Of a stretch of 32,091 nt of DNA, positions 647 through 29,182 are shown one piece after another. The translations under genes and the position numbers were made by a program. Source of the DNA: Desulfurivibrio alkaliphilus (lineage in GTDB: Bacteria > Desulfobacterota > Desulfobulbia > Desulfobulbales > Desulfurivibrionaceae). Each line of letters starts with the position of its first letter. The first letter of the stretch is position 1. The notes beneath the pieces are model-generated. The model worked only from the letters and a program-made list of their open reading frames with translations. It had not been told where the DNA came from and made no database searches. Location: positions 1 through 32,091 of the forward strand of contig DSDS01000137.1 in the NCBI GenBank assembly GCA_011048585.1. The letters are read 5' to 3'.

Positions 647-2138
647 CGTGGTGGTGATCGGCAGTGGCATTAGCGGTTTGACCGCCGCCGCCCTGCTGGC
701 CAAAAGTGGCCGGAGCGTGGTGATCGTGGAGCGTACCTCCCGGCCGGGCGGGGCCCTGAAACGGTTTGTCCGCCAGGGGGTCCCCTTCGATGTCGGGTTC
801 CACTACACCGGCTGCCTGGGAGAGGGTGACGTGCTCACTACCCTCTGGGATTACCTGGGGGTGCGCGCCATAATCCCCATCCGCCCCTTCCCCCCCGACG
901 GCCACGACGAGCTGTCCATCGCCGGCTACGACCAGCCGGTACGGGCTTTTTTCTCCTACCGGCGCCTAAGGGATGAATTGGAGCGGAGATTCCCCGGAGA
1001 GCGGATCGCCATCGCTGACTACCTGGGCAAGATTGCCGCGATCTGCCAGAAAATCCCCTTTTACAACCTGGAGTTGCCCCTGACCCCGTTTCTGCGGGGC
1101 TTCCAGGAACCCCCCGTTTCATTGTGCGACTACTTAACCAAACTCACGGCTGATCCCCAGCTCCAGGCGGTCCTGGCCAGTCCCGCCTTCCTCTACGGGA
1201 TCCCGGTCGCGCGGGCAAGTCTGGCGGTCCACGCCATGGTCGCCCACGGCTTTTACCGCGGGGCCTATACCATAGATGGCGGTGGCCAAGCGGTGGTGGA
1301 CGCCTTCCTCCGGATCCTGGAGCAGGCCGGGGTAACCATAATCGGCAAAAACCGGGTCGACGAAATTCTGGTGGAAGGTGGCGTGGCGGCCGGGGTCCGC
1401 ACCGACCGCGGACAGATTATCCACTGTCGTGACGTAATCTACACCGGTCACCCTTCCGCCGTGCCGGCCATGGTGCCGGCGGGTATTTTCCGGCCGATCT
1501 ACCTGAAGAGAATCCAAGGGTTGCGCAACACCGCCTCCATGTTCGCGGTTTTCGCGGTGGCTCCGGATGAGACCCCCGGGGAACCCGACTGGGTCAACCA
1601 CTATCACATCCCGGCCGGGCTCGCCATTCTGCCCGAAACCGCGCGGGTGCCCAGAACGGAAAGGGTCCTGATGATGACCACCCCGGAGCGGGGCCGCTTG
1701 CCAAACTTGAAAAATAACCACCGGGGCATTATACTCCTCAGACCCGCGCTTTGGGAGGAGATTGAGAGATTCGCACCAACCGGTCGCCGCAGTCGCCCCC
1801 CGGCTTACCTGGCCTGGAAAGAGGAGCTGGCCGGGGAGATGATTGCGGCGGCCGGCCGCTACTGGGGGGAGAGCTACGCCGCCCTCCGTCCCTTGGCGGT
1901 GGGCACCCCCCTGACTTTTCGCGATGAGTTGGCCGCCCCTGAGGGAGCCGCCTACGGAGCCCAACATTGCCTGGGCCAGCACAACCCCGGAGCCCGGACC
2001 AGGCTGCCGGGCTTTTGGCTCGGTGGCCAGAGCACCCTGATGACCGGCGTGGTGGGGGCGGCCCTGGCCGGGTTGGTCAGCGCCGGAGAGATTTTGGGAC
2101 TGGAATCGACATGGGAGCAAGTGCGCCAATGCCGTTGA
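636..2138 (+). CDS. FAD-dependent oxidoreductase, CrtI/CrtISO (phytoene desaturase/isomerase)-like
   Basis: A 500-residue flavoprotein with an N-terminal dinucleotide-binding motif G9-x-G11-x-x-G14 and the ribose-binding Glu at about residue 32. The RPGG block that follows is typical of the CrtI/carotene isomerase/retinol saturase group. A C-terminal FAD-contact segment (WLGGQSTLMTGVVGAALAG, about residues 459-480) supports the same family. Such enzymes desaturate, saturate or isomerise long polyenes. The gene sits between two ketosynthase genes and overlaps both (11 bp before, 10 bp after), so its substrate is probably the acyl or polyene chain made by this operon rather than a carotenoid; no phytoene synthase is visible. 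Reaction direction cannot be read from sequence. It is not part of the usual E. coli-type aryl-polyene gene set. Confidence 0.85.
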   Translation: MKCDVVVIGSGISGLTAAALLAKSGRSVVIVERTSRPGGALKRFVRQGVPFDVGFHYTGCLGEGDVLTTLWDYLGVRAIIPIRPFPPDGHDELSIAGYDQPVRAFFSYRRLRDELERRFPGERIAIADYLGKIAAICQKIPFYNLELPLTPFLRGFQEPPVSLCDYLTKLTADPQLQAVLASPAFLYGIPVARASLAVHAMVAHGFYRGAYTIDGGGQAVVDAFLRILEQAGVTIIGKNRVDEILVEGGVAAGVRTDRGQIIHCRDVIYTGHPSAVPAMVPAGIFRPIYLKRIQGLRNTASMFAVFAVAPDETPGEPDWVNHYHIPAGLAILPETARVPRTERVLMMTTPERGRLPNLKNNHRGIILLRPALWEEIERFAPTGRRSRPPAYLAWKEELAGEMIAAAGRYWGESYAALRPLAVGTPLTFRDELAAPEGAAYGAQHCLGQHNPGARTRLPGFWLGGQSTLMTGVVGAALAGLVSAGEILGLESTWEQVRQCR

Positions 2139-3361
2139 AACGAGTTGTCATTACCGGGCGCGGCGCCGTTTCCCCCTTCGGCCTCGGAGTTCAACCCCTC
2201 CTGGAGGGGATCTGGGCCGGGCGCTCCGCCATCCGGGCCATGCCGGAGTGGGCCCGGATCGACGGCTTAAAAAGCCTCCTGGCCGCCCCGGTGCCCGATT
2301 TTGCCGACAAGGAGCTCCTGCCCCGCAGCCTGCGACGCACAATGGGCCCAATGGCCAAATATGCCACCTTGGCGGCTCTTGAGGCCGTCAAGGACGCCGG
2401 GATCGACCAATCCCTGCTGGCCACCGGCACCATCGGGGTCGCCGTCGGTTCCACCACCGGCAGTCCCTCCGCCTATGAAGATTTTTACCGCACCTTCCTG
2501 CCCGCTGAGACCATCGGCGGCATCAGGTCCGGCGAATTTTTTAAAATCATGGGCCACAGTTGCGCGGCCAATATCTGTCTGGCCTTGGGGATCCATGGCG
2601 AACAGTGGTCCCCGGTCAGCGCCTGCGCTTCCTCTTCCCAGGCCATCGGACTGGGCTATCTGCTGATCCAGGCGGGTCGCCAACGGGCCATGCTCTGCGG
2701 CGGCGCCGATGAAGTTCACCACTCGGTCACCGGGGTTTTCGACGTGGTCCGGGCCGCCTCGCTGCAAAACGACAATCCGGCCGCCACACCCAGACCCTTT
2801 GATGCCGAGCGGGACGGGGTGGTTTGCGGCGGCGGGGGCGGAATTATCCTGCTGGAGAGCTACGAGTCGGCCCGGGAAAGAGGCGCCAGGATTTACGGCG
2901 AAATCATCGGTTTTGGCAATGTCAACGACAGTGAGCATATCGCCAACCCCCATGAGGGCTCCATGGCCAGGGCCATGCTCAATGCCATGGACGAATCCAA
3001 GATCAGCCCCGCCGAGGTGGATTATGTCAACGCCCACGCCACCGCTACCCTGCTGGGCGATCCGGCCGAGGCCGCGGCCATCGCCAAGGTGGTGGGGGCC
3101 TCGGTGCCCACCAGCTCCTTTAAGGGGCATATCGGCCATACCCTGGGAGCGGCGGCGGCCCTGGAGACCATCGTTCTGCTGGAGATGCTCCAGCGCCAGG
3201 AGATCATTCCCACCCTTAATCTGGCAAACCCGGACCCGGAGTGCGCCGTGGCCAATCTGGTCCGTAAAATTGAAAAGAGAGCATTAACCACCGTGCTGAA
3301 AAACAACTTTGCCCTGGGCGGCGTCAACGCAGCTTTGGTTCTGAGGAGATTAACACCATGA
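2129..3361 (+). CDS. Beta-ketoacyl-ACP synthase II (FabF-like)
   Basis: A complete 410-residue KAS II-type condensing enzyme with the full triad: Cys166 in SACASSSQ, His303 in NAHATATLLGD and His337 in KGHIGHTLGAA. Spacing matches the FabF family. I chose the ATG at 2129 because MPLKRVVITGRGAVSPFG is the usual N-terminus; an in-frame ATG at 2111 is possible. The start overlaps the FAD oxidoreductase by 10 bp, and the stop overlaps the following ACP start in an ATGA arrangement, so KS and ACP are probably made in step. It most likely elongates chains on the ACP encoded immediately downstream. Confidence 0.93.
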   Translation: MPLKRVVITGRGAVSPFGLGVQPLLEGIWAGRSAIRAMPEWARIDGLKSLLAAPVPDFADKELLPRSLRRTMGPMAKYATLAALEAVKDAGIDQSLLATGTIGVAVGSTTGSPSAYEDFYRTFLPAETIGGIRSGEFFKIMGHSCAANICLALGIHGEQWSPVSACASSSQAIGLGYLLIQAGRQRAMLCGGADEVHHSVTGVFDVVRAASLQNDNPAATPRPFDAERDGVVCGGGGGIILLESYESARERGARIYGEIIGFGNVNDSEHIANPHEGSMARAMLNAMDESKISPAEVDYVNAHATATLLGDPAEAAAIAKVVGASVPTSSFKGHIGHTLGAAAALETIVLLEMLQRQEIIPTLNLANPDPECAVANLVRKIEKRALTTVLKNNFALGGVNAALVLRRLTP

Positions 3362-3627
3362 TGAGCAACGACGAACTTCGCCGTCGAGTAGTTGCAACCC
3401 TGGCGGAAGAACTGGAGCTGGACCCCGAGGCGTTGACTCCGGAGGCCACCCTATACGATGACCTGGGCCTGGACAGCCTTGACGCCGTGGATATGGTGGT
3501 GGCCCTGGAGAAGAGTTTCGGGATGAAATTTAACGATGAGGAGAGCCTGAAGGCTGTCCGCACGGTTAACGACCTTTTTGAACTGCTGATCAAGTTGAAG
3601 GAAAGCCAAACCGCGGATGAAGCTTAG
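3358..3627 (+). CDS. Acyl carrier protein (first of two)
   Basis: An 89-residue acidic protein with the 4'-phosphopantetheine attachment motif GLDSLDAVD; the modified serine is Ser40 (Ser39 if the second ATG at 3361 is used). Length and predicted helices fit a stand-alone type II ACP. GAGGAG 8 bp upstream is a good ribosome binding site. The start overlaps the upstream ketosynthase stop by 4 bp, and the end overlaps the acyltransferase start by 11 bp. It presumably carries the chain handled by the neighbouring ketosynthases, FAD enzyme and PlsC-like acyltransferase. A second ACP occurs at 12723. Confidence 0.95.
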   Translation: MMSNDELRRRVVATLAEELELDPEALTPEATLYDDLGLDSLDAVDMVVALEKSFGMKFNDEESLKAVRTVNDLFELLIKLKESQTADEA

Positions 3628-4345
3628 CAGGCTGGCGGCCAATCTCTATTGCTGGTCAACCTTTATCCTTGTTACTCTGGCCTTCGGAGCGTTCCTGCCG
3701 CTACTCGCGCTGGCCCAAACCCTCTCTCCGGGCAAATCGCCTGGTCGACCTCTGCGGCTTGCCATCAGGAGATACGGCTGGATCCTGCTGCGTCTCCTCT
3801 CCCCGGCCGTGCCCATCTCCGTCGAAAACCGGGCCGGCGCGCTGCCCTTGCCGGCAATCTTTGTGGCTAACCACCGCTCCGCCCTCGACCCCTATCTCTT
3901 CGGGATGCTGGAGGTGGAAAACGCCTTTATCACCGGCTGGCCGTTCAATATCCCAATTTACGGCCGGGTGATGCGGGCCGCCGGCTACATCGACGCCCGC
4001 AACGGCTGGCCGGAGGTTGAAGCCCAGGGCCAGCACCTAATCGACGAGGGCTGCTCGCTGATTATCTGGCCCGAAGGGCATCGTTCCCGGGACGGCAAGC
4101 TGGGCCGTTTCCGCCAGGGCGCCTTCAAGCTGGCGGCGGCCACCGGCCGCCCCCTGATCCCGGTGGCAATCATCGGGGCGGGAGAGGTGTTGCCCCCCGG
4201 TAAATCCTTGTTGACTCCCGGCCCGATCAAGTTGATCATTCTGCCGCCGATCACCTTGAAAAAAGGAGATGACGGTGTTATAGTCCCTCGTCTTTTGGCA
4301 GCGGAAACCCGCAAGGCAATCACCAAGGAACTGGCTGCTTGGTAA
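3617..4345 (+). CDS. PlsC-like 1-acyl-glycerol-3-phosphate acyltransferase family protein
   Basis: A 242-residue membrane-anchored acyltransferase. It has a hydrophobic N-terminal segment (about residues 10-33), the catalytic NHRSALD motif (His86, Asp91; the HX4D dyad) and the phosphate-binding EGHRS motif at residues 153-157, where most relatives have EGTRS. PlsC-family enzymes move an acyl group from ACP or CoA to a glycerol-phosphate or similar acceptor at the inner membrane. The gene follows the first ACP with an 11-bp overlap, so the donor is probably that ACP and the product a phospholipid or other lipid carrying the specialised chain. The acceptor is not shown by the sequence. Confidence 0.88.
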   Translation: MKLSRLAANLYCWSTFILVTLAFGAFLPLLALAQTLSPGKSPGRPLRLAIRRYGWILLRLLSPAVPISVENRAGALPLPAIFVANHRSALDPYLFGMLEVENAFITGWPFNIPIYGRVMRAAGYIDARNGWPEVEAQGQHLIDEGCSLIIWPEGHRSRDGKLGRFRQGAFKLAAATGRPLIPVAIIGAGEVLPPGKSLLTPGPIKLIILPPITLKKGDDGVIVPRLLAAETRKAITKELAAW

Positions 4346-4380
4346 GCGCAGCCTACAACTGTTGGCCACCGGAACCGGAG

Positions 4381-5706
4381 ATGCGGATACCGCCCCCCAC
4401 CAGCCGATACTCCCTCACAAGCGGGATCTCCCTGCGAGAGTGTGGAAAAACCGAACGAGAAGCCGCCCAGCTGGAGTTGCTGCGCCGCCACCTGGAGCTG
4501 GCGGGCACCTCCGAATTTTATCGGGAAAAATTCCAACAGGTGGGGTTGGTGCCCAGTCAATTGCGCTCCCTGGCCGAGCTTCACAAGCTGCCCCTCACCG
4601 AGCGGGCGGACCTGAACCGCGGTCATGGCTGTTTTTTCCCCGCCGCCGACCTCACCGCCACCGACCTAGCCCTCACCTCCGGCACCACCGGCAATGCCGT
4701 CACCGTTCCCTACACCAGTAATGACCTGGAGCGGCTGGCCTACAATGAGATGATAGCCTTTTTTCGCATCGGCATCAAACCCGGCCAACGGGTTCTGCTT
4801 TGCGTTACCCTGGATCGCTGCTTTATCGCCGGACTGGCCTATTATACGGGCCTGGTCCGGCTGGGGGCCACCGCCATTCGCAGCGGCGCCGGCAGCCCTT
4901 CCCGGCAATGGGAATTGATTCGCACTTTGAACCCTTCGGTCATCGTAGGCGTGCCCACTTTTCTCTGGCAGTTGGCCCAATGGGGGCTGGAGCACGGGCT
5001 CGATCCGACCCGGGCCGGCATCGAAACCCTGGTCACCATCGGCGAACCGATCCGCAAGGCCGACCTGACCCTCACTCCCCTGGGGGAGATGCTGGAAAAA
5101 GGGTGGGGAGCCAAAACCTACGGTTCCTACGGGGCCACCGAACTGGAAACCGCCTTTGTCGAATGTCCCGCCACCGCCGGGGGCCATGTCCATCCCGAAC
5201 TGATGCTCGTGGAGATTATCGACGAAACCGGCACGCCGGTGCCGGACGGCCAGCCGGGGGAAGTGGTGGTCACCCCCCTGGGGGTTGAAGGCCTGCCGCT
5301 GGTCCGTTTTCGCACCGGCGATGTCGCCCGACTCTACCCTGAACCCTGCTCCTGCGGCTGGCAGACCCCGCGCCTGGGCCCCATTGAGGGACGGTTGGCC
5401 CAACGGCTCAAGTGCCGGGGAACCACCCTCTACCCGGAAAACATCTTCCAGGCCATCGACGAAATTCCCGGCATTGCCGCCTACTACGTGGAAGCCCGGG
5501 CCCACTTCAGCCTCGCCGACGAGATCACGGTAGTGGTGGGCGGAGACGAAGCGGTTGAACCGGCCGCGATCCAGGAGCGGTTGCAAGCCAAACTACGGGT
5601 AAAACCGGAGGTTATAAAAAGATCTCCGGCCGAGGTGGTTGCTGTGATTGAAAAAGGCAGTGGCCGAAAAATGAAAAGATTTTTTGATTTTCGGAAGGTA
5701 GAATAA
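4381..5706 (+). CDS. PaaK-like (phenylacetate-CoA ligase family) AMP-forming ligase
   Basis: A 441-residue adenylate-forming enzyme. Motifs include the phosphate-binding loop SGTTGNAVTVPY (from Ser100), the SYGATE core (Tyr250-Glu254), FRTGD ending at Asp314, and the PCSCG...R...GR element seen in the PaaK branch. The C-terminal GRKMKRF supplies the expected late lysines. It activates a carboxylic acid as an acyl-adenylate, then transfers it to CoA or possibly ACP. In APE clusters an AMP-ligase loads the aryl starter, so this is the likely starter-activating enzyme here, although PaaK-type ligases are not the usual APE form. The ATG at 4381 follows GGAG closely; a TTG at 4339 is the alternative start. 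The gap from the previous gene is 35 bp. Confidence 0.85.
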   Translation: MRIPPPTSRYSLTSGISLRECGKTEREAAQLELLRRHLELAGTSEFYREKFQQVGLVPSQLRSLAELHKLPLTERADLNRGHGCFFPAADLTATDLALTSGTTGNAVTVPYTSNDLERLAYNEMIAFFRIGIKPGQRVLLCVTLDRCFIAGLAYYTGLVRLGATAIRSGAGSPSRQWELIRTLNPSVIVGVPTFLWQLAQWGLEHGLDPTRAGIETLVTIGEPIRKADLTLTPLGEMLEKGWGAKTYGSYGATELETAFVECPATAGGHVHPELMLVEIIDETGTPVPDGQPGEVVVTPLGVEGLPLVRFRTGDVARLYPEPCSCGWQTPRLGPIEGRLAQRLKCRGTTLYPENIFQAIDEIPGIAAYYVEARAHFSLADEITVVVGGDEAVEPAAIQERLQAKLRVKPEVIKRSPAEVVAVIEKGSGRKMKRFFDFRKVE

Positions 5707-5708
5707 CC

Positions 5709-6743
5709 GTGTCGTGTTTAAGTGAATATTGGGGGCAGGAGTTCACCCCGCAGGAGATCGCCCAGACCCGGAAAAACAACGGGCTGCTGTCGCTGGAGCT
5801 TGAGCTTTCCCGGGCGTGCAATATCCGTTGTGTGTACTGCTATGCCGCTTCCGGTCTACCCCTGGCCAATGAGCTTACCGCCGCCGAAATCGAGAATGTG
5901 ATCGACCAGGCCACCGCCCTCGGCATCCGCAAAATTATCGTCCTCGGCGGCGGCGAGCCCCTCTTCTATCCCAGCATTTTCGAGGTGATCGATTACATTC
6001 TGGCCAAGGGGATCAAGGTGGACATCTTTACCAACGGCACCCTGATCACCCCGGAGATCGCCGAGCTCCTGGCCCAGAAAGGGGTGGCGGTGGTGATCAA
6101 GATGAACAGCCGCGATGCCGCCGTCCAGGATTATCTGGCGGGACGGCCGGGAACCTTCGCCGCCATCGAAAAGGGCCTGGCGGCCCTGCTGGCCGCCGGC
6201 TACCCAAACGAGCATCTTCTGCTGGGCATTCAGACCATTATCTGTCGCCAGAACTATGATGAACTTCCCGATATCTGGCGCTGGGCCCGCAGCCGGAAGA
6301 TCATCCCCTATGTGGAGATGATGACCCTGCAGGGCAGAGCCTCCGAGCACCCCGAGTTGGAAGTTCCCATAACCGAGATCAAAACCCTTTTTGAAAAGCT
6401 CTCCGAGATCGACGCCAAGGAGTTCGGCCAAACCTGGACCCCCCACCCGCCCCTGGCCGCTTCCCAGTGTTCCCGCCATGAATACTCCTGTACCGTGACC
6501 TCCATCGGCGAGGTTCATCCCTGCCCCGGAGTTAACTTGCCGGTGGGCAACATCCGTGAGCAGTCGCTGGCCGATATTCTGCGCACCAGCAAGATTATCC
6601 GCGATCTGCGCAACATCCGGACCACCATCAAGGGTAAATGTTCCGGCTGTGACTATAACACCATCTGTTACGGCTGTCGCGGCCATGCCTACCAGGTAAC
6701 GGGGGATTACCTGGCCGAGGATCCGCTTTGCTGGCTGAAATAG
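5709..6743 (+). CDS. Radical SAM protein with C-terminal SPASM/twitch cysteine cluster
   Basis: A 344-residue radical SAM enzyme. The N-terminal CxxxCxxC motif binds the SAM-cleaving 4Fe-4S cluster (Cys37, Cys41, Cys44), followed by the GGGEP motif. The C-terminal part holds further cysteines at 254, 261, 272, 311, 314, 320, 323 and 341, a pattern of the SPASM domain that binds one or two auxiliary clusters. The start is GTG 5709, two bases after the ligase stop, with GGAAGG about 10 bases upstream. SPASM enzymes mostly modify peptides or small molecules, but no precursor peptide is visible nearby, and context suggests the acyl chain or starter as substrate. That last point is inference. Confidence 0.88.
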   Translation: MSCLSEYWGQEFTPQEIAQTRKNNGLLSLELELSRACNIRCVYCYAASGLPLANELTAAEIENVIDQATALGIRKIIVLGGGEPLFYPSIFEVIDYILAKGIKVDIFTNGTLITPEIAELLAQKGVAVVIKMNSRDAAVQDYLAGRPGTFAAIEKGLAALLAAGYPNEHLLLGIQTIICRQNYDELPDIWRWARSRKIIPYVEMMTLQGRASEHPELEVPITEIKTLFEKLSEIDAKEFGQTWTPHPPLAASQCSRHEYSCTVTSIGEVHPCPGVNLPVGNIREQSLADILRTSKIIRDLRNIRTTIKGKCSGCDYNTICYGCRGHAYQVTGDYLAEDPLCWLK

Positions 6744-7436: not shown

Positions 7437-7991
7437 TTGCCGACACCAAACAGCCCTGACTCGCGGGATTATTATCGTTATGCCTTCTGCGAAACGGCCA
7501 GCCCGGAGGTAACCCGACTGCTGGCGGCGACTCCTTCCCGCTGGGGACGAATGCCGCCCCTGAGTCGAGCCCTGGTGGTGGAAGCGGGCCGCGTCCTGGT
7601 GGAAAACGGTCTCTTGGCGCCGGGCGAGAAATTTTCGGACCAGGGCAAACGGGTGGGGCTGATCGGGGGCACCACCACCGGTTCCCTGGCCACTGATCTG
7701 GAGTTCGCCGCCACCCTGCTGACCGGTCCCAACCTGGCCAGTCCGGCCCTCTTCGGCTATACTCTGCCCAACATCCCCCTCTCCGAAGCCGCCAACCACT
7801 TCGGCCTGATCGGTCCGGTTTACGCGATCTTTGCCCCGGAGTCGCCGTTGGTCGCCGCCGAGGAGGAAGCCGGCCGCTGGCTCGTCAGCCAGCCCGAACT
7901 TACCCTGATGCTCGCCTGTGCCTTCGACAGCCGGCCCATGCCCGGTCAGGCCGGTCAACTGGCCATAACCTTCACCATCGTGAGCCGATAA
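7437..7991 (+). CDS. Truncated, Cys-less beta-ketoacyl synthase N-terminal-like protein
   Basis: A 184-residue protein resembling only the N-terminal half of a ketosynthase, with the GLIGGTTTGS element and the GYTLPNIPLSEAANHFGLIGP region that precedes the nucleophile in real enzymes. Where the active Cys should be, the sequence reads YAIFAPESPL, so it cannot condense. It belongs with the ketosynthase-like / chain-length-factor-like proteins (ketoacyl-synt_2 type) of APE clusters, and would act as a partner or scaffold for a full ketosynthase. No ATG is in frame; TTG 7437 preceded by CGGAAG is the best start. A second, longer protein of this kind is at 14225. Exact role unknown. Confidence 0.65.
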   Translation: MPTPNSPDSRDYYRYAFCETASPEVTRLLAATPSRWGRMPPLSRALVVEAGRVLVENGLLAPGEKFSDQGKRVGLIGGTTTGSLATDLEFAATLLTGPNLASPALFGYTLPNIPLSEAANHFGLIGPVYAIFAPESPLVAAEEEAGRWLVSQPELTLMLACAFDSRPMPGQAGQLAITFTIVSR

Positions 7992-7993
7992 AG

Positions 7994-9256
7994 ATGCAAA
8001 TCACCCTGGTGTACCCCAAGTGGAATAAGATCCCGGAACAGACCGAATTCCATCTGCCACCCCATGGCCCGGTCTGCGTGGCCGCCTCAATTCCCGATCA
8101 CCATCAGCTCAGGTTTGTCGACGAGAACGTCGACCCCCTGGACTTCGCCCAGCCCACCGAAGTGGTGTTGCTCTCCATGATGCTCACCTGCCAGCTTCCC
8201 CGGGGCAAGGAGATCGCGGCGGAGTACCGCAAGCGGGGAGTGCCGGTGATCTGCGGCGGCATTGCCACCATGCTCCACGCCCAAGAGATGGCCGGCTATG
8301 TTGATTCGGTCTTTCTGGGGGAAACCGAGGGGGGCCGGCTGGCCGCGGTGCTGGAGGATTGTCGGAACGGAACGCTGCAGCCCAAATACGATTTTTTCCA
8401 CGATTTTCCTCCCATTGATACTATCGGTCCCGCCCGCCGGGAGATTCTCAACCGGCAGCGCTACATCTATCGGGGGGTGCAGATGGTGGATCTGGTTCAC
8501 GCCTCCCGGGGCTGCCGCTTCAACTGTTTTCCCTGCGCCACCGCCTTTCTTGGCGGCCGCCAGTTTAGACCGCGCCCCATCGATCGGGTGGTGGAAGAGT
8601 TGGCCGGTATTGAAAACAACCGCCTCTTTCTGGTGGATAACTCCCTGGCCCAGGATAAAAAATGGGTGATGGAGCTTTTTGAGGCGATCAAGCCCCTGAA
8701 GAAGAAGTGGATCAGTCACCCCATTCTCGACGAAGATGAAGTGGTGGCCAAGGCGGCCGAAGCGGGGTGCTGGTACGTTTACCAGGCGGTATTCGATACC
8801 TCGCAGGTGATCCGGGACCGGGTCAAACGGCTGAAGGATCACGGGATCGGAGTGGAGGCCGCGGTACTGCTGGGGCCCGACAATCAGGACGCCGACTATA
8901 TCAAGCGGCTGGTTGACTTTCTGCTGGAGATCGATGTCGAAATGGCGGAGTTCTCCATTCTGACCCCCTTTCCCCATACCCCGGTCACCGCCCAGATGGA
9001 AAAGGATGGCCGCATTCTGCACCGGGACTGGAGCCGCTACACCACCGCCGAGGTCTGTTTCCAGCCCAAGAAGATGACCCCCGAGGAGTTGCAGGCCATG
9101 TATCACTACGCCTGGGACAACTTTTACCGGGAGATGCCCCAGTCCCTGCGGATGGCCCGCCTCTTCAGCGAAGTGGTTAAGAAAGAGATGGCCGATGGTT
9201 CATATGTACCCCGACGCCTGGCCGCGAAACGCGGCTGGGAACTGCCCCGGAGCTGA
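7994..9256 (+). CDS. B12-binding-type radical SAM protein (first of a tandem pair)
   Basis: A 420-residue protein with an N-terminal Rossmann-like region (about 1-140) of the cobalamin-binding radical SAM class, including ICGGIATMLHAQE and a GE pair. The radical SAM core follows with Cys174, Cys178 and Cys181 (CRFNCFPC). The classical DxHxxG cobalamin ligand motif is absent, as is common in this class. Such proteins catalyse methylations, ring contractions and other C-C bond chemistry on unreactive carbons. The start lies two bases after the stop of the half-ketosynthase gene, and the next radical SAM gene begins 5 bases downstream. Substrate is not evident; the operon context points to the lipid or polyene chain. 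Confidence 0.87.
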   Translation: MQITLVYPKWNKIPEQTEFHLPPHGPVCVAASIPDHHQLRFVDENVDPLDFAQPTEVVLLSMMLTCQLPRGKEIAAEYRKRGVPVICGGIATMLHAQEMAGYVDSVFLGETEGGRLAAVLEDCRNGTLQPKYDFFHDFPPIDTIGPARREILNRQRYIYRGVQMVDLVHASRGCRFNCFPCATAFLGGRQFRPRPIDRVVEELAGIENNRLFLVDNSLAQDKKWVMELFEAIKPLKKKWISHPILDEDEVVAKAAEAGCWYVYQAVFDTSQVIRDRVKRLKDHGIGVEAAVLLGPDNQDADYIKRLVDFLLEIDVEMAEFSILTPFPHTPVTAQMEKDGRILHRDWSRYTTAEVCFQPKKMTPEELQAMYHYAWDNFYREMPQSLRMARLFSEVVKKEMADGSYVPRRLAAKRGWELPRS

Positions 9257-9261
9257 TCGCC

Positions 9262-10608
9262 ATGGGCCTGAACTGCCTCTTGGTCTCCGTCAACCAGGCC
9301 GTTGTCCCCTACCCGGTGTATCCCCTGGGAGTGGCTCACCTTTGCGGGGCCCTGCGGGAAGCCGGCCACGTTCCCACCCACTTTGATCTCCTGGCCGACG
9401 GCGGCCGGGATGGACTTGAGCGGCTGCTCCGGGAAAACAGCTACGAGCTGATCGGACTCTCCATCCGTAACCTGGACACGGTGGACAGCTCCGACCCCCA
9501 CGGTTACCTGCCGGAGATTGCCGAAACCGCCCAACTGATTCGCCGCTGCTCGGCGGCGGTGATGGTGCTGGGAGGATCGGCCTTTTCCATCATGCCCGGC
9601 GAGGTCCTGGCCTACCTGCAGGCCGATTACGGAGTGGTGGGCGAAGGGGAGCTGCTCCTGCCCTGGCTGGCCGATGAGCTGGCCGCGGGCCGTCGTCCCG
9701 AGGCCCGGCTCCTGTACAGTGAACGCAAGGATGATAGCTGGCCCCAACCGATCTTCAGCCCCAGCTCCCTCAAGTACTACATCACCCACGGCGGGATGCT
9801 CAATATCCAAACCAAACGCGGTTGCCCCCACCGTTGCGCCTACTGCTCCTACCCGACCATCGAGGGCAGGACCATGCGCTACCGCGACCCGGAGGAAACC
9901 GCCGCCGAAGTTGGCCGCTTGAGTACCGAGCATGGGGCCAGGTTTATCTTCTTCACCGACTCGGTGTTCAACGACGCGGCCGGCCATTTCCGCCTGGTGG
10001 CGGAGGCGCTGATCAAAAACGGCAACACCACCCCCTGGTGCGCCTTTTTCCGGCCGCAAAATCTGGACCGGGAGGATCTGCTGCTGATGAAACGAGCCGG
10101 CCTGGCCGCCATGGAGGTTGGAACCGATGCCGCCTCCGACCGAACCCTGGCCGCTCTGGACAAGGGTTTCTCCTTCGAGCAGGTGCTGGCCACCAATCGG
10201 CTGGCCCTGGAGGCGGAGATCCCCTGCGCCCATTTCGTCATGCTGGGCGGCCCCGATGAAAATCGGCAAACCCTGAACGAAGGACTCGCCAACCTGGAGA
10301 GCCTGGGAAAGTCCCTGGTCTTCGCCTTCACCGGCATCAGGATTTTGCCGGGCACCAGCCTGGCCCAACGGGCTGTGGCCGAAGGGGTTATCGAGGCCGG
10401 CCAACCGCTGCTGGAGCCGATCTTCTACTCATCACCCCAGCTCGCGGGGATCGATCTGGAGCGGGAGCTGACCGCCTCCTTCGCCGGCCGGCTAGATCGC
10501 ATCTACCCGGTTTCAGAGGCGATCGACCAGCTTACCATGCTCCACCGCATGGGCCACGTCGGCCCCCTTTGGGATTACCTTCTCCGGCCCCGCACCAGAA
10601 GACGATGA
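9262..10608 (+). CDS. B12-binding-type radical SAM protein (second of a tandem pair)
   Basis: A 448-residue protein with an N-terminal cobalamin-binding-like domain (YPLGVAHLCGALREAGH, then VLGGSAFSIMP and VVGEGE) and a radical SAM core with Cys188, Cys192 and Cys195 (CPHRCAYC). It is clearly different in sequence from the upstream radical SAM protein, so the pair is not a recent duplication. Domain order is that of the BchE/P-methylase-like class. ATG 9262 is 5 bp after the previous stop, and the final TGA overlaps the ATG of the glycosyltransferase by 4 bp, tying it to the APE-type half of the operon. Reaction unknown; methylation, cyclisation or other C-C bond formation are all possible. 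Confidence 0.87.
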   Translation: MGLNCLLVSVNQAVVPYPVYPLGVAHLCGALREAGHVPTHFDLLADGGRDGLERLLRENSYELIGLSIRNLDTVDSSDPHGYLPEIAETAQLIRRCSAAVMVLGGSAFSIMPGEVLAYLQADYGVVGEGELLLPWLADELAAGRRPEARLLYSERKDDSWPQPIFSPSSLKYYITHGGMLNIQTKRGCPHRCAYCSYPTIEGRTMRYRDPEETAAEVGRLSTEHGARFIFFTDSVFNDAAGHFRLVAEALIKNGNTTPWCAFFRPQNLDREDLLLMKRAGLAAMEVGTDAASDRTLAALDKGFSFEQVLATNRLALEAEIPCAHFVMLGGPDENRQTLNEGLANLESLGKSLVFAFTGIRILPGTSLAQRAVAEGVIEAGQPLLEPIFYSSPQLAGIDLERELTASFAGRLDRIYPVSEAIDQLTMLHRMGHVGPLWDYLLRPRTRRR

Positions 10609-11795
10609 ATGAAAAGGAAAACCCAAAAATTATCGTCGTCATTCCGGTTTACAATCATGGAGACTCCCTGCGGAAGGTGGTGGAAGGCACCCTGGCCGCC
10701 GGCTGGCCGGTGCTGGTGGTTGACGACGGCAGCGACGACGAGCCTCTGCGGCAGCTAACCGGACTCGACTGCGCCAAGCTCCGGCTGCCGACCAACGAGG
10801 GCAAGGGAACGGCCATCCTGGCGGGGGCCAGGGAGGCGGCCCGGCTGGGCTATGAAACCATGATTACCCTGGATGCCGACGGCCAGCATGACCCGGCCGA
10901 GGCGGAGCTGCTGGTCCGGCAGGCGGAGCTCATCGACCGACCGGCCATTGTGATCGGGGCCCGGCGGATGACCCAGGAGACGGCGCCCAAGGCCAGCCTT
11001 TTCGGCCGCGCCTTCTCCAATTTCTGGGTCCGGCTGGAATCGGGCCAGGAGCTGGCGGACACCCAAAGCGGCATGCGCCTCTATCCAATCCGCGAACTGC
11101 TGGCCCTGAACCTGACCTGCAGCCGCTACGATTTTGAGGTCGAAGTGCTGGTGCAAGCAGCCTGGGCCGGGGTTGCCCTGACCTCGGTGGAGATCTCGGT
11201 CCACTACCCTCCCCCCGGGCAAAGGATCACCCATTTCCACCAGTTACGAGACAATTTCCGCCTGACCCTGCTCCATACCCGCCTGCTGCTGCGCCGTCTG
11301 GCCCCTTGGCCCCACCGCCAGGTCTGCAGCCGGCCGGCCCCGCAAGAGAAAAAACTTCGCTTCCCCCGCCCCTGGCTGGCTATGCAGATGCTGTTTCGCG
11401 AACACAGTTCCGCGCCGGGGATGGCCACGGCGGTATGGCTGGGGCTGTTCATGGGCGCGCTCCCCCTGATCGCCGTCCATACGGTGGCAATTATCTACGT
11501 GGCCCATCGCCTCCATCTGAACAAGATGGCGGCGGTGGCGGCCAGCCAGTTCTGCATGCCGCCGGTGGTGCCGGTTATCTGCATTCAAGTCGGCTACTTC
11601 ATGCGGACCGGCCAGCTGCTTCTCGATCTCTCCCGGGAAAAATGGCTGCACGAGATCCATCTCCGCCTCTGGGACTGGTTGCTCGGCTCTCTGGTGGTCG
11701 GCCCCCTGCTGGGCCTCATCGGGGCCGTTCTGGTTTACTGGGCCCAAACCCGGCTGTTCAGGCGACAAACAAAGGAAAAGGGCCCGTCCGGATGA
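10605..11795 (+). CDS. Family 2 glycosyltransferase fused to DUF2062
   Basis: A 396-residue two-part protein. The first part (about 1-240) is a GT2 glycosyltransferase of the dolichol-phosphate-sugar synthase kind, with IPVYNHG at the start, Asp40-Asp41-Gly42 and the DADGQHDP metal/nucleotide-sugar motif at residues 90-97. The second part (about 260-385) is a DUF2062 membrane domain with several hydrophobic helices (WLGLFMGALPLIAVHTVA and later). It would move a sugar, or a related polar head, to a lipid at the inner membrane. GT2 and LpxL-type acyltransferases sit together or fused in APE clusters, matching the arrangement here. The ATG overlaps the previous stop by 4 bp. Confidence 0.87.
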   Translation: MNEKENPKIIVVIPVYNHGDSLRKVVEGTLAAGWPVLVVDDGSDDEPLRQLTGLDCAKLRLPTNEGKGTAILAGAREAARLGYETMITLDADGQHDPAEAELLVRQAELIDRPAIVIGARRMTQETAPKASLFGRAFSNFWVRLESGQELADTQSGMRLYPIRELLALNLTCSRYDFEVEVLVQAAWAGVALTSVEISVHYPPPGQRITHFHQLRDNFRLTLLHTRLLLRRLAPWPHRQVCSRPAPQEKKLRFPRPWLAMQMLFREHSSAPGMATAVWLGLFMGALPLIAVHTVAIIYVAHRLHLNKMAAVAASQFCMPPVVPVICIQVGYFMRTGQLLLDLSREKWLHEIHLRLWDWLLGSLVVGPLLGLIGAVLVYWAQTRLFRRQTKEKGPSG

Positions 11796-12697
11796 CCCCT
11801 GCTTCCCGGCCGCTTGGGGGCCGCCTTAAAATCAGGCTCGAAGCACTGGGCCACGGAATCTTCTATCTTACCCTGCGTCTTTTTGGTCAGCTGGGGGCCT
11901 ATCTGCTGCTGCTGCCGGTGATAGCGGCATATGCCGCTACCAGCCGGAAGATCGGGCGAAAAACGGCCCCCTACCTGAGCCGCCGTTTTCCGAGCGCCGG
12001 CCGTCCGGGCCGCTGGCTGGCCATGATCCGAAACCTGACCTCCTTTGGCCAGGTGCTGGTGGATCGCGCCTGGCTGGGAATCAAAGACGGCGATCTGCGC
12101 GGCGAATTTATCGGCTATCAGCAACTGGAAGAGCTGGTGAACCGGGGGAGAGGGGTGGTGCTGCTCACCGCTCATGTGGGCAACTGGCAGACGGCTCTGG
12201 CCCGACTGGACAGTCTGCCCACCCGGGTTCATGCCCTGATGCGCTACGATCAGGAGGCGGCGGCCAAACACTACTTCGACCTCCGTGACGGCAGGCGCCC
12301 CTTTGAAATCATCGACAGCGAGGGCCCCTGGGGTGGCATGATCGAGGCCACCGCAGCCCTCCAGCGGGGCGAGGTGGTCACCATCATGGGGGACAGGCTG
12401 GTTAAGGGCTCGGCGGTGACGGTGGATCTCCTAGGGGACCCAGCCAGAATACCCGAGGCCGCCTACTTTCTGGCCGGCTCGGTAGGAGCCCCGGTGGTTG
12501 TCATGTTTGCCGCCAAAACCGGGCGCAAATCATACCAGTTACGGGTCTGGGACAGTTGGTATCCCCGTTGGGAAAACCGGGAACAACGGGCGGAGGCCTG
12601 TCGAAACTCCGGTGCCAGGTTTGCCAAAAACCTGCAGGAGTATCTGGACGAGTATCCCCATCAATGGTACAACTTTTACGATTTCTGGCAGCAGTAA
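11792..12697 (+). CDS. LpxL/HtrB-like lysophospholipid acyltransferase family protein
   Basis: A 301-residue acyltransferase of the lipid A late-acyltransferase (LpxL/HtrB) family, with a hydrophobic N-terminal segment (LTLRLFGQLGAYLLLLPV) and the catalytic-site block AHVGNWQ. His128 is the expected catalytic base, but the acidic residue of the HX4(D/E) dyad is Gln133. The later GEVVTIMGDR segment and the C-terminal WYNFYDFW are typical of the family. It would acylate the head group made by the glycosyltransferase, probably with an ACP-bound chain. The ATG overlaps the previous stop by 4 bp. The Gln substitution could mean a different mechanism, reduced activity, or a subfamily feature. Confidence 0.82.
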   Translation: MTPASRPLGGRLKIRLEALGHGIFYLTLRLFGQLGAYLLLLPVIAAYAATSRKIGRKTAPYLSRRFPSAGRPGRWLAMIRNLTSFGQVLVDRAWLGIKDGDLRGEFIGYQQLEELVNRGRGVVLLTAHVGNWQTALARLDSLPTRVHALMRYDQEAAAKHYFDLRDGRRPFEIIDSEGPWGGMIEATAALQRGEVVTIMGDRLVKGSAVTVDLLGDPARIPEAAYFLAGSVGAPVVVMFAAKTGRKSYQLRVWDSWYPRWENREQRAEACRNSGARFAKNLQEYLDEYPHQWYNFYDFWQQ

Positions 12698-12722
12698 CTT
12701 AAACCAACCAAATGGAAGAAGC

Positions 12723-12980
12723 ATGGAAGAGCTCAAAGAGAAACTGAAGCGGATCTTGATCGACGAGATCAAAATCCAGGGGATGACCCCAGCGGACCTC
12801 AAGGACGATATGCCCCTGTTCGGCGATGACGGTCTGGGGCTTGACTCCCTGGATGCGGTGGAACTAGTCGTCCTGGTACAAAAGCATTTCGACGTCCAGA
12901 TTGCCGACATGGAGGAGGGCAAAGAGGCCTTCGCCTCCATCGCCAGCCTGGCCAACTATATTCACCAGAAAAAGAGCTGA
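12723..12980 (+). CDS. Acyl carrier protein (second of two)
   Basis: An 85-residue ACP with the GLDSLDAVE attachment site; Ser42 should carry phosphopantetheine. The segment before it (FGDDGLG) is slightly longer than in the ACP at 3358, as in APE-type ACPs. ATG 12723 is preceded by GGAAGAAGC, a good ribosome binding site; the gap from the acyltransferase is 25 bp. The next gene is a ketosynthase followed by a chain-length-factor-like protein, so this ACP is the probable carrier for the polyene made by the second module. Confidence 0.94.
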   Translation: MEELKEKLKRILIDEIKIQGMTPADLKDDMPLFGDDGLGLDSLDAVELVVLVQKHFDVQIADMEEGKEAFASIASLANYIHQKKS

Positions 12981-12992
12981 AGGTAAGTTTTG

Positions 12993-14228
12993 GTGCCAGC
13001 AGCAGACAGGATCGCCATCAGCGCCATGGGGTGCGTCTCCGCCGCGGGTCGAAATCCGGAGGAACACCTCCGATCGTTGAACGGTCGGCCGGTGCCCTGC
13101 GGCCCGGTGCCCGCAGAGACCTTTGCCACCTCCCTGACCTTCCCGGTATTCAGCGCCCCGGACGAGCCGCTACCATCCCCGACCCCTGATTACCCGCGGC
13201 TTGGCCAGATCGCCGCCGACCTGGGTCCCACCGCCAGGCTGGCCCTGCGGGCCGCCCTTCAGGCCCTGGTCCGCAGCGGGATAGAGCCGGCGGACCTGCG
13301 GAAAAAGCGGGTGGGGATCTGCCTGGGCACCACCGTGGGTTGCGCCTTTAACGATGAGGATTACTACCGAGCCTGGCGCCAGGGGGCACATCCACCCTTG
13401 GACCCGGTGCGCCGTTACCTGCGCAACAATATCAGCGCAATCCTGCAGGAGATCCTGGGGGTGAGCGGTCCCAGCCTGGTGGTCACCAACGCCTGCGCCT
13501 CGGGTACCGATGCCCTGGGCATCGCCGGCAACTGGCTGCGGAGCGGGCGCTGTGATCTGGCCATTGCCGGCGGGGCCGACGCCCTGTCACGTATCACCTG
13601 CAACGGCTTTGCCGCCCTCCAGCTCACCGATTCCGCTCCCTGCCGCCCCTTTAATCAGAACCGCCAGGGACTGAATCTTGGTGAGGGGGCCGCCGTGCTG
13701 ATTCTCGAAAATGAGTCCTCGGCCCACCGGGCCCGGCGCCGGCCGATAGGCTGGCTGCGCGGCTACGGCTGTGCCGCCGATGCCTGGCATCCCACCGCTC
13801 CCCATCCGGAAGGGCGCGGCCTGCAGGCGGCCATTACCGCCGCCCTTAAGGACGCCATGATCCCGAATCGGAAACAGATCGCCATGATCAACGGTCATGG
13901 CACCGCCACCCCCAGCAATGACCTGGCGGAGACCTCGGCCCTGGCCGCCATCTTCACCCTTGATTATCGCCCGCCGCTGATTTCCACCAAATCCCTGACC
14001 GGTCATACCCTGGGAGCGGCCGGGGCCATCGAGGCGGTCTTTACCCTGCTGGCCCTGCAAAACGAAACAGTTTCGGGAACCCGCCGCTGCCGCCAACCGG
14101 ACCCGGCCTTTCCCTACCGGCCGCTCACCGAAAATGAGCAGGTTCCGCTGACCGGCAGGATCGGACTTTCCCAATCCCTGGCCTTTGGCGGCGGCAACAG
14201 TTGCCTGGTTTTGGAGGCGGCCCCATGA
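12993..14228 (+). CDS. Beta-ketoacyl-ACP synthase (KAS II type), APE-type partner of the downstream half-KS
   Basis: A 411-residue condensing enzyme with an intact triad: Cys168 in TNACASGTD, His302 in INGHGTATPSND and His338 in KSLTGHTLGAAGAIEA. I place the start at GTG 12993, 8 bases after AAGGT; TTG 12990 is one codon earlier and also possible. It lies between the second ACP and a Cys-less KS-like protein, the order seen for the APE KS and its chain-length factor (ApeO/ApeC type). It probably performs the repeated elongations that build the polyene. The stop overlaps the next ATG by 4 bp, which supports a KS-CLF heterodimer. Confidence 0.92.
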   Translation: MPAADRIAISAMGCVSAAGRNPEEHLRSLNGRPVPCGPVPAETFATSLTFPVFSAPDEPLPSPTPDYPRLGQIAADLGPTARLALRAALQALVRSGIEPADLRKKRVGICLGTTVGCAFNDEDYYRAWRQGAHPPLDPVRRYLRNNISAILQEILGVSGPSLVVTNACASGTDALGIAGNWLRSGRCDLAIAGGADALSRITCNGFAALQLTDSAPCRPFNQNRQGLNLGEGAAVLILENESSAHRARRRPIGWLRGYGCAADAWHPTAPHPEGRGLQAAITAALKDAMIPNRKQIAMINGHGTATPSNDLAETSALAAIFTLDYRPPLISTKSLTGHTLGAAGAIEAVFTLLALQNETVSGTRRCRQPDPAFPYRPLTENEQVPLTGRIGLSQSLAFGGGNSCLVLEAAP

Positions 14229-15040
14229 GCAATCCGGTGAGCAAGGATGTTTTTGTCGCCAAGGTGGCACGGGAGATCGGGGTTCCAACCATTCCCGCCG
14301 ACCTGCTCCGCGACCTGCGCCGGGCCGATCTTTTTATCCAGGTGGCCGTGCTGGCCGGAAGCGCGGCCCTGGGTTCCGGCTCAGGCGATGATCCCTGCCA
14401 GACCGGGGTCTTTCTGGGCACCACCACCGGCCCGCTGGATACCAATTTCGGCTTCCTCGATTCCCTCTTCGACAACGGTGAAAGCCAGGCCTCTCCCACC
14501 CTCTTTTCCCATTCGGTGCATAACGCCGCCGCCGGCTATCTCGCCCGCCTCCTGAATCTCAGAGGACCGGCCCAAACGGTCACCAGTCCCGGCTGGCCCT
14601 TTCTGGCGGCCCTGGCCGAGGCCAAAACCGCCTTGGAGCTGATGCCGTTTAAAAGGGCCCTGGTGCTGGCCGTGGAGGAGGAATCCCCGGTGCTGGTTGA
14701 GGCCGCGACCAGGAGCTCGGCCCCGGCGTCGGCTCCCTCCCCGCGACGGGGAGCGGTAGCCTGGTTGCTGACCACCGAGACCGAGTCAAGGTACCGCTTA
14801 CCCAGATTAAACTCTATCCTGGTGGAAGAGAACCATTGCGCCGCCGAGTTCTACCTGCGGCGCCAGGAGGAGGTTTTTCAGCCGGATTTTACCCTTGCCC
14901 CCGGAGCAGAAGCCCCGGCCGGGCTGGCTGGGGCCCTGGCTTTGACCCAGGCCGTGGAGGAAATTGGACCCGGAGACGGCCCGCTCTTCTGGACCGCCAC
15001 TGCCTTCTGCGGCCGTGCCTCGGTTCGCATTGAACGGTAA
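14225..15040 (+). CDS. Chain-length-factor-like truncated ketosynthase (ketoacyl-synt_2, ApeC type)
   Basis: A 271-residue protein homologous to the N-terminal part of ketosynthases: GVFLGTTTGPLDTN, then SHSVHNAAAGYLARLLNLRGP. The nucleophile position reads TVTSPGWPF, without Cys, and neither catalytic His motif is present. This matches the beta-ketoacyl synthase chain-length-factor proteins encoded beside the APE ketosynthase. It is expected to pair with the ketosynthase at 12993 and set chain length. The ATG overlaps the ketosynthase stop by 4 bp. Compared with the 184-residue relative at 7437, it keeps about 85 more residues, including the ALVLAVEEESPVLVEAA strand-helix region. Confidence 0.8.
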   Translation: MSNPVSKDVFVAKVAREIGVPTIPADLLRDLRRADLFIQVAVLAGSAALGSGSGDDPCQTGVFLGTTTGPLDTNFGFLDSLFDNGESQASPTLFSHSVHNAAAGYLARLLNLRGPAQTVTSPGWPFLAALAEAKTALELMPFKRALVLAVEEESPVLVEAATRSSAPASAPSPRRGAVAWLLTTETESRYRLPRLNSILVEENHCAAEFYLRRQEEVFQPDFTLAPGAEAPAGLAGALALTQAVEEIGPGDGPLFWTATAFCGRASVRIER

Positions 15041-15092
15041 GGCTCTTGACCCCGTTTCGGGAAAGCAAACCACAACCCAAGGAGGTGTCAAA

Positions 15093-15698
15093 ATGAAATT
15101 AACCAACTGGATTCTGGCCACCACCGTCGCAATTGTCGCCTGCCATCTGAGCCTGGGAGCCACCCCGGCCCTGGCCATTCAATCCCTGAGCGGGATGGTC
15201 GGCCAGACTTACTATCTGGCCTACAATCTCCATCCCGATCCGAAAAGAAATACCCTCTCGTCGGTCAACTATCAACTGGATGGGGCCATGATCCCCTGGG
15301 GCACCCAGGTGAAGGTGCAGAGGGTCGACCGCCGGGGGATGAGACTGGAGGCGGTGGAGAGTAAAAAGGTTTACCTCTATCAGTTTCATCGGAACACCGG
15401 CCAGACCCTGGCCCTGAGCGACCACATGGCCAAACTGCTGGTCAAGGATATCTCCGGCCTGAAAAAGGAGGTCAATGCCCTGCCGGCTCTCGATCAGCGG
15501 GGCATCAAAGAGGGGCGGGTCAAGCTGGGGATGACCAAGCGAGGCACCCTGATCGCCATCGGTCACCCCCCGGAATTCGCCACCCCCAACCCCGAAAGCG
15601 ACAACACCTGGAATTACTGGTACAATCGCTTCCGCACCTTCATCGTTAATTTCGACGACAAGGGCAAGGTGGAAGGGCTAACCGGCTATCCCTTTTAA
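15093..15698 (+). CDS. Exported protein with BamE/SmpA-like C-terminal region
   Basis: A 201-residue secreted protein. A clear signal peptide (basic MK, hydrophobic core, ATPALA before about residue 29) predicts signal peptidase I cleavage, so it should be periplasmic. The C-terminal part (about 125-201: VKLGMTKRGTLIAIGHPP and later WNYWYNRFRTFIVNFDDKG) resembles the BamE/SmpA-OmlA fold, where such segments bind outer-membrane components. The SD sequence GGAGGT 6 bases before ATG 15093 is the strongest in the operon. I do not recognise it as a core APE gene; it may help hold or deliver the lipid product at the outer membrane. Function uncertain. Confidence 0.7.
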   Translation: MKLTNWILATTVAIVACHLSLGATPALAIQSLSGMVGQTYYLAYNLHPDPKRNTLSSVNYQLDGAMIPWGTQVKVQRVDRRGMRLEAVESKKVYLYQFHRNTGQTLALSDHMAKLLVKDISGLKKEVNALPALDQRGIKEGRVKLGMTKRGTLIAIGHPPEFATPNPESDNTWNYWYNRFRTFIVNFDDKGKVEGLTGYPF

Positions 15699-15740
15699 TT
15701 CCCGGTTTTCTTCGACAACTATTTACTTGATGGGAACAAG

Positions 15741-16469
15741 ATGACCCAAACACCCATAGCTTTCATCTCCGGGGCCAGCCGAGGCATTGGCGCCGCCATC
15801 GCCCTCCGGCTGGCCGCCGGCGGTTACGATATCTGGCTCAACTACCACGCCTCCCATGGCCCAGCCCAGTCCCTGCGCGAACAGATCGAGGCCATGGGCC
15901 GCCGGTGTACCCTGCTTTCCTTCGACGTGGCCGATGAGGCGGCGGTGACGGCAGCACTGGACCCCCTGCTGGACCAGGCGGTGCCCTACGCCTTTATCCA
16001 TAACGCCGGGATCACCCGCGATGGCCTGCTGCCCATGATGGGCCGCGACAGCTGGGACCAGGTCCTCAACACCCACCTCACCGGCTTTTTCCTCATGGGC
16101 CGCCTGATCTCCAAGGCGATGCTCTCCAAACGGCAGGGGCGAATCATCGCCATCGCCTCGGTCTCGGGCGAGACCGGCCAGGCCGGGCAGGTCAACTATG
16201 CCGCCGCCAAGGCCGGTCTGATCGGGGCCTGCAAATCCCTGGCCCGGGAGCTGGCCCGACGCAACATCCTGGTCAATGTGGTCTCCCCGGGGCTGATCGC
16301 CACCGAAATGATCAAGGATCTGCCCCTGGATAAGATCCTGCCCCTGGTGCCCTTGAACCGGGTCGGCACCGTGGATGAGGTCTCGGGAGTGGTCGAGTTT
16401 CTGCTCGGCCCGGCCGCCGGCTACATCACCGGCCAGGTGATCGGAGTCAACGGCGGCCTCTACATGTAG
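15741..16469 (+). CDS. fabG: 3-oxoacyl-ACP reductase, FabG-like SDR
   Basis: A 242-residue short-chain dehydrogenase/reductase. The cofactor motif GASRGIG is at residues 11-17, HNAG is intact, and the catalytic Ser140, Tyr153 and Lys157 (NYAAAK) are present. The C-terminal TGQVIGVNGGLYM is typical of FabG. It reduces beta-ketoacyl-ACP to beta-hydroxyacyl-ACP with NADPH. Placement between the KS/CLF pair and a dehydratase fits the APE elongation cycle (ApeQ role), so it is probably the dedicated cluster reductase rather than the primary fatty-acid one. The gap upstream is 42 bp with no obvious terminator. Confidence 0.93.
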   Translation: MTQTPIAFISGASRGIGAAIALRLAAGGYDIWLNYHASHGPAQSLREQIEAMGRRCTLLSFDVADEAAVTAALDPLLDQAVPYAFIHNAGITRDGLLPMMGRDSWDQVLNTHLTGFFLMGRLISKAMLSKRQGRIIAIASVSGETGQAGQVNYAAAKAGLIGACKSLARELARRNILVNVVSPGLIATEMIKDLPLDKILPLVPLNRVGTVDEVSGVVEFLLGPAAGYITGQVIGVNGGLYM

Positions 16470-16509
16470 CGTGACCGGCCGCCCGCCCAATCCACCCAAA
16501 AGGAACCCG

Positions 16510-20553: not shown

Positions 20554-20608
20554 TCGACAATTTATCGACCCTGGTGAACACTTACCACCAGAGATTAGGA
20601 GAGGATTG
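20554..20608 (+). other. Intra-operon spacer with short hairpin and hexamer repeat
   Basis: This 55-bp gap is the longest between genes of the second module. It holds a direct repeat ATCGAC (20553-20558 and 20564-20569, one helical turn apart) and a small inverted repeat CTGGTG/CACCAG (20571-20576, 20586-20591) with a 9-base loop. The ribosome binding site AGGAGAGG for the next gene follows at 20598-20605. No T-run follows the hairpin, so it is not a standard terminator. It could be an mRNA processing or stability element; this is weak evidence. Confidence 0.25.
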
Positions 20609-20995: not shown

Positions 20996-21003
20996 CCTTT
21001 GCC

Positions 21004-25755: not shown

Positions 25756-25772
25756 CCTAAATGCCAGCTCGC

Positions 25773-27791: not shown

Positions 27792-27800
27792 GGAAAAACC

Positions 27801-29063: not shown

Positions 29064-29182
29064 GTTGGGGGTGCCGACTTACATAGCAACAGCGAAGGCC
29101 ACCATGGCGGACAAAGGGGCGGCCCGCGACCGGGTTAATGATTTGCCTTGCGGGCGGGGGCAAACCCGGAAATAATCGGGCG

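Follow-up and report, generated by a model that had tools for sequence, protein, structure and literature searches.

The adjacent genes RS1 and RS2 encode two real and distinct radical-SAM enzymes, one belonging to a named family and the other to none, that lie in a widespread, anaerobic, aryl-polyene-like gene cluster. Gene coupling, family assignment, predicted folds, residue conservation and the surrounding cluster lead us to infer a substrate, a reaction and a product: we propose, with moderate confidence, that the two are translated together and act as non-redundant tailoring enzymes under anaerobic conditions, where RS2 would C-methylate an aryl head group and RS1 would carry out a second radical step. 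The DNA analyzed (‘the window’, 32,091 nucleotides) makes up an entire contig of a MAG of 1.75 Mb (78% complete), and the nearest named relatives of the organism are Desulfoprunum/Desulfobulbaceae.

A tandem pair of unlike radical-SAM genes

RS1 and RS2 are separated by 5 bp (9257–9261), and RS2 overlaps the glycosyltransferase gene that follows it in the sequence ATGA (10605–10608). The coordinates, strand, gap and overlap given in a preliminary description of the region were exact when rechecked against the open reading frames of the window (Table 1). Both proteins carry the CxxxCxxC motif reported there, and its three cysteines are invariant among 55 RS1 and 52 RS2 homologues. The two proteins do differ widely, as had been claimed: the best BLASTP match between them has an E-value of 0.11, and their relationship is visible by profile comparison only. 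In the all-against-all sequence-similarity network that the same description had called for, RS1 and RS2 homologues remain separate clusters at E<1e-40. Since the two represent distinct families, separate catalytic steps for them, as first suggested, are likely.

Among 60 fetched loci in which both genes are complete, RS1 and RS2 lie at most 300 bp apart in 59, mostly with overlaps of 1–16 bp, and the tandem arrangement is not due to chance. Gene positions indicate translational coupling of the two in almost every locus that contains both. They occur together in 40 of 43 long loci (by a loose BLAST criterion), and their pairwise identities correlate (r = 0.86), a value that shared ancestry alone could yield. 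A scan for promoters and terminators returned counts close to those expected from shuffled sequence. An apparent fusion of RS1 to a glycosyltransferase in one locus (L066), where RS1 is truncated and RS2 is missing, was set aside as a probable deletion or misassembly.

Table 1. Features of the window, numbered from its first nucleotide
Feature	Position	Strand	Basis
Phytoene-desaturase-like oxidase (636–2138) and ketosynthase (in frame 1967–3361)	636–3361	+	Pfam
Acyl carrier protein	3358–3627	+	PP-binding, 53.8 bits
FlxY-like (flexirubin-type) AMP ligase, putatively for an aryl acid	4339–5706	+	NF053551, 406 bits (cut-off 520)
Radical SAM/SPASM enzyme, in the slot of an aromatic ammonia lyase elsewhere	5709–6743	+	Pfam/NCBIfam, locus comparison
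Small conserved protein directly upstream of RS1	7437–7991	+	No Pfam match; kept upstream of RS1 in many loci
RS1, radical-SAM enzyme of unnamed family	7994–9256	+	ORF, 420 aa
RS1 N-terminal Rossmann-type domain, B12-binding-like	7994–8383	+	Pfam B12-binding, 23.6 bits (cut-off 32.1)
RS1 Met63, aligned with TsrM/RS2 Arg69 under cobalt	8180–8182	+	53/55 homologues; RS1–RS2 profile alignment
RS1 CRFNCFPC (CxxxCxxC), predicted [4Fe-4S] site	8513–8536	+	Invariant Cys
RS2, TIGR04072 (rSAM_ladder_B12) B12-binding/radical-SAM enzyme	9262–10608	+	448 aa; 584.7 bits
RS2 Arg69 of RNxD motif, equivalent to TsrM Arg69	9466–9468	+	52/52 homologues
RS2 CPHRCAYC (CxxxCxxC)	9823–9846	+	Invariant Cys
RS2 Val235, at position of TsrM Glu273 (cluster-blocking)	9964–9966	+	V/I in 49/52
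GT2 + DUF2062 glycosyltransferase	10605–11795	+	Pfam; 4-bp overlap with RS2
Right module: acyltransferase, ACP, KS, CLF-like, KR, ApeP-like dehydratase, LolA	11792–17591	+	Pfam
Right module: MMPL-type exporter, FabA/ApeI-like dehydratase, thioesterase, KS	17488–22577	+	Pfam

Families, folds and conserved residues

By its profile score RS2 is a full member of TIGR04072, exceeding the cut-off of 360 bits and covering positions 2–442 of the 443 in the model; a limited literature search found no paper on this family. It also matches the Pfam B12-binding (47.4 bits, cut-off 32.1) and Radical_SAM (75.3 bits) models. The best fold for its predicted structure (pLDDT 92.7) is TsrM (PDB 6WTE/6WTF; TMq 0.85), which is likewise its top PDB profile match (1.8e-55). 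Work on TsrM (PMC8992657) describes an arginine that blocks the lower cobalamin face and a glutamate, Glu273, that keeps SAM off the cluster. The RS2 residues Arg69, Asn70 and Asp72, all present in every homologue examined, align with Arg69-Asn70-Asp72 of TsrM, and the RNxD motif is kept in the anammox relatives of RS2. A predicted cobalamin site in RS2 is well supported by this fold and the Arg69 motif.

Because RS2 keeps Arg69 but has a valine at the Glu273 position, it should be radical-competent. By analogy we infer that Arg69 would hold the cobalamin base-off, without a lower ligand, and that the free iron of the Fe-S cluster would bind SAM and give rise to a 5'-deoxyadenosyl radical. RS2 is thus, on its residues, not simply TsrM-like, since Val235 removes one hallmark of TsrM; considered as a nonradical methylase of the TsrM type, it has the arginine, lacks the glutamate (as do nearly all its homologues) and scores 118 of the 500 bits set as cut-off, and is not a member.

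That TsrM-type model (Trp 2-C-methyltransferase) is the third-ranking NCBIfam match of RS2. The second-best family is BzaD (TIGR04385; 162 bits, cut-off 450), the benzimidazole methyltransferase of anaerobic B12 lower-ligand synthesis, although no bza genes were seen in the window. Both are aromatic methylases, and they are the nearest characterized families of RS2. The preliminary description had favored chain methylation or ring formation; because BzaD and TsrM both act as ring methylases and the surrounding cluster looks aryl-polyene-like, the evidence for RS2 points by analogy to aromatic C-methylation instead. That RS1 and RS2 methylate or cross-link the polyene or acyl chain, and not the aromatic head, we consider unlikely: unactivated sp3 carbons are indeed methylated by cobalamin radical-SAM enzymes, and the two genes sit among chain-extension and dehydration genes, but the families closest to RS2 act on rings and an ammonia lyase gene adjoins RS1 in several loci.

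A grouping with hopanoid or tRNA-modification enzymes, which had been raised at the outset, was not found. Scores to the hopanoid enzymes HpnR and HpnJ were 43–71 bits (cut-offs 650 and 577.6), and RS2 scored 17.5 bits (cut-off 251) to the MiaB/RimO tRNA or ribosomal methylthiotransferases, to which RS1 gave no match. In-frame TGA codons in RS2 homologues, considered as possible selenocysteine codons, were ordinary C-terminal stops in those checked. Many relatives carry a third B12 radical-SAM enzyme (HpnJ/BchE-like, ∼480 aa) between RS2 and the glycosyltransferase (L128:12648–14078, L133:12626–14116 and others) that is absent in the window.

RS1 is, by profile comparison, a member of no named family: none of the NCBIfam models came close to its cut-off, and its Pfam Radical_SAM score (22.7 bits) falls under the cut-off of 29.5. 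We assign it to the radical SAM superfamily on its cysteines, kept in 55 of 55 homologues, and on a predicted fold (AlphaFold2, pLDDT 93.0) that matches radical-SAM structures. The nearest of these is AprD4, a radical SAM diol dehydratase (PDB 6FD2; TMq 0.78, compared with 0.62 for TsrM) that is also the only significant PDB profile match of RS1; at 18–19% identity and 36.1 bits (NF033070, cut-off 500), RS1 is not a member of the AprD4 family, which serves an unrelated pathway.

The B12-binding-like domain that the preliminary description had noted in both proteins holds up for RS2. For RS1 the Pfam match to the domain is sub-threshold, with a Rossmann-type fold still predicted, and cobalamin binding is uncertain, its nearest solved fold being AprD4. 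Strand-end loops of this domain are 83–91% conserved, compared with 63% elsewhere in the domain, which suggests a real ligand site, for which cobalamin is a candidate rather than a proven ligand. A tentative alternative is that RS1 is cobalamin-free and has kept the B12-type fold while performing a radical dehydration or rearrangement, leaving RS2 as the only methylase. AprD4 is itself cobalamin-independent. Its rank as best fold and sole PDB profile match, the sub-threshold B12-binding score and a domain model in which strands 2 and 3 have no predicted helix between them all favor this alternative, but the loops placed to hold cobalamin show the highest conservation in the domain, unlike a vestigial site, and the AprD4 family score is far under its cut-off. 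A cobalamin-free RS1 would be compatible with our main explanation, which leaves the RS1 cofactor open.

Across distant loci RS1 has a median identity of 60.6% (next gene, 48.5%; RS2, 40.7%), a ranking somewhat biased by the use of RS1 as the query with which loci were fetched; on these sequences no other protein of the cluster is as conserved as RS1. Of the 395 genomes of the phylum, about 50 carry a member of its ortholog group (56–81% identity). Homologues at 57–80% identity occur in 80 named contigs, both MAGs and isolates, and the record titles (which for MAGs can be wrong) place them in Desulfobacterota, Nitrospirota, Omnitrophota, Kiritimatiellia, Lentisphaerae, Verrucomicrobia, Planctomycetota, Elusimicrobia, Acidobacteria and others.

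RS1 is also found outside such clusters in some Acidobacteria; in one acidobacterial MAG (L144:9920–13052) it lies beside an HMPTM/Tes-like radical-SAM protein and a complex I operon. A pairing of RS1 with that type of enzyme was rejected, the partner being absent beside RS1 in two relatives. We also rejected RS1 as an anammox ladderane enzyme, as the anammox RS1-like protein is 30% identical and is nearer to the HpnJ/BchE models than RS1 is.

Cluster content and a proposed aryl starter

The placement of RS1 and RS2 in a surrounding FAS/PKS cluster was borne out: by Pfam/NCBIfam gene content, one cluster spans positions 1–22577. Genes on its left side include ketosynthases, a phytoene-desaturase-like oxidase, an ACP, an acyltransferase, a FlxY-like ligase, a SPASM enzyme and a PagL-like protein. 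Among the aryl-polyene/flexirubin marks, the ApeP-like protein scores just over its cut-off (27.6 against 27), and the ApeI-like (26 against 28.5) and FlxY-like (Table 1) proteins score under theirs. Downstream of the cluster lie ordinary SOS-type genes (27354–31684: S24 peptidase/UmuD-like, UmuC-like Y-family polymerase, then RecD2 helicase), and a 423-aa ORF with no Pfam/NCBIfam match (25761–27032) faces a larger ORF on the opposite strand (25773–27239).

The strongest pointer to an aryl starter, at the level of gene content, is the slot that follows the FlxY-like ligase. This slot holds a SPASM enzyme in 23 of 31 loci and an aromatic ammonia lyase in the other 8, with no locus having both or neither (Fisher 1.3e-7, a value that ignores shared ancestry, so that the swaps may be few), and the flanking gene order is alike in most loci compared. 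Besides the window, the loci with this slot include L128:1533–2966, L105, L111, L114, L116, L124, L135 and L147. The lyase matches the FlxA, TAL and HAL models, in all cases under cut-off, and a second type of ammonia lyase lies directly downstream of RS1 in five further loci (L049, L058, L059, L064 and L070). The SPASM enzyme is therefore a candidate functional replacement for the lyase. No PF00221 ammonia lyase was found in the window's genome (which is incomplete) or in two close relatives (one of them single-contig), as would be expected if SPASM replaces the lyase; it follows that the aryl starter in the window's genome depends on the role proposed for SPASM.

The cluster is probably of an aryl-polyene/flexirubin-like kind, found in oxygen-avoiding bacteria, with an aromatic polyene lipid or pigment as its product. 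It shares with flexirubin/aryl-polyene clusters (FlxY, FlxA, ApeP/ApeI) the FlxY-like ligase, ApeP-like dehydratase, KS/CLF, KR, LolA, MMPL exporter, acyltransferase and thioesterase, and in its relatives the FlxA/TAL-like lyase; it differs in having the SPASM enzyme in place of an ammonia lyase. We know of no radical-SAM enzymes in the aerobic flexirubin/aryl-polyene clusters.

In the pathway we propose, the product of this type II FAS/PKS cluster would be a lipid or pigment of the aryl-polyene/flexirubin kind. The SPASM enzyme (or, in relatives, the ammonia lyase) would supply an aryl acid, to be activated by the FlxY-like ligase and extended on the ACP by KS/CLF, KR and dehydratases, then glycosylated or acylated, and exported by LolA/MMPL. 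RS2 would most likely act as a cobalamin-dependent C-methylase of the aromatic head, and RS1, with or without cobalamin, would act on that aryl-polyene intermediate too, in a second radical step that is the more invariant of the two.

Anammox genomes and the ladderane label

Genome surveys routinely apply the label ‘ladderane’ to clusters like this one. Under a ladderane-type explanation, RS2 (as a Kuste3342-type protein) and its partners would cyclize a polyunsaturated acyl-ACP to cyclobutane or other strained rings with the help of RS1, which we regard as very improbable. One locus (L211, in genome G493) has the same ligase-SPASM-RS2 order as the window, and its RS2 scores 440 bits to TIGR04072. 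Its full order (ketosynthases, methyltransferase, ketosynthase, small ORF, ligase, SPASM, RS2, FabG, ACP, FabZ-sized ORF) matches the published Kuste3349–3339 order (PMC4790861), from which G493 would be Kuenenia. The Kuste3342-type anammox member of TIGR04072 shares the CxxxCxxC and RNxD motifs and the ligase-SPASM-RS2 content, and is 36% identical to RS2; the window's cluster adds RS1 and the aryl-polyene-type genes. The Kuenenia and Desulfotalea FASII loci of Rattray 2009 (PMC2649909) contain the same kinds of genes in the same ligase-SPASM-RS2 order, and the portion of that paper considered here makes no mention of RS1 among its genes. The paper proposes radical SAM enzymes for ladderane cyclization but describes Desulfotalea as being without ladderanes. 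A ladderane synthase is listed elsewhere among non-methylating cobalamin enzymes (PMC13142503), yet candidate genes expressed in E. coli gave no detectable ladderanes (PMC4790861). The replacement of SPASM by an ammonia lyase in relatives also speaks against ring formation of this kind.

We surveyed 19 genomes with full-length HzsA, treating as anammox-type the 14 with an HzsA identity of at least 80% to G493 (G493 included), and scored the locus as present where SPASM, a Kuste3347-type methylase and TIGR04072 were found above cut-off. It is present in 4 of the 14, including G493, G573 (L210) and G738 (L216), and thus missing from most anammox genomes tested; G527, G622 and G652 are without it, and the anammox-type genomes that lack it include three single-contig ones. 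The remaining 5 of the 19 are also without SPASM, the methylase and TIGR04072 above cut-off. To our knowledge, all anammox genera studied make ladderanes. Against that background, a locus carried by 4 of 14 genomes is an improbable ladderane pathway, an indication that clusters of the window type have usually been mislabelled as ‘ladderane’. We saw no evidence of ladderane production by the window's cluster.

Somewhat more speculatively than for the pair itself, RS1 may found an uncharacterized catalytic family, present in mostly anaerobic bacteria from many phyla and a marker of a large class of aryl-polyene lipids, with SPASM as the lyase replacement and with Kuste3342–3344 acting in an aryl rather than a ladderane pathway. 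Were the aryl-polyene reading true, many ‘ladderane’ labels would be misleading, the true ladderane synthase would have to be sought elsewhere in anammox genomes, and the highly conserved RS1 family would gain a concrete substrate hypothesis. The exchange of SPASM for ammonia lyase amounts to a testable prediction of a radical-SAM route to the aryl starter acid.

A weaker relative of TIGR04072 (305–339 bits) occurs in 11 of the 14 anammox-type genomes. In the one case examined (G527, L207:9659–12187, minus strand), a TIGR04072-like B12 radical-SAM protein is directly followed by a chalcone/stilbene-type (type III) PKS.
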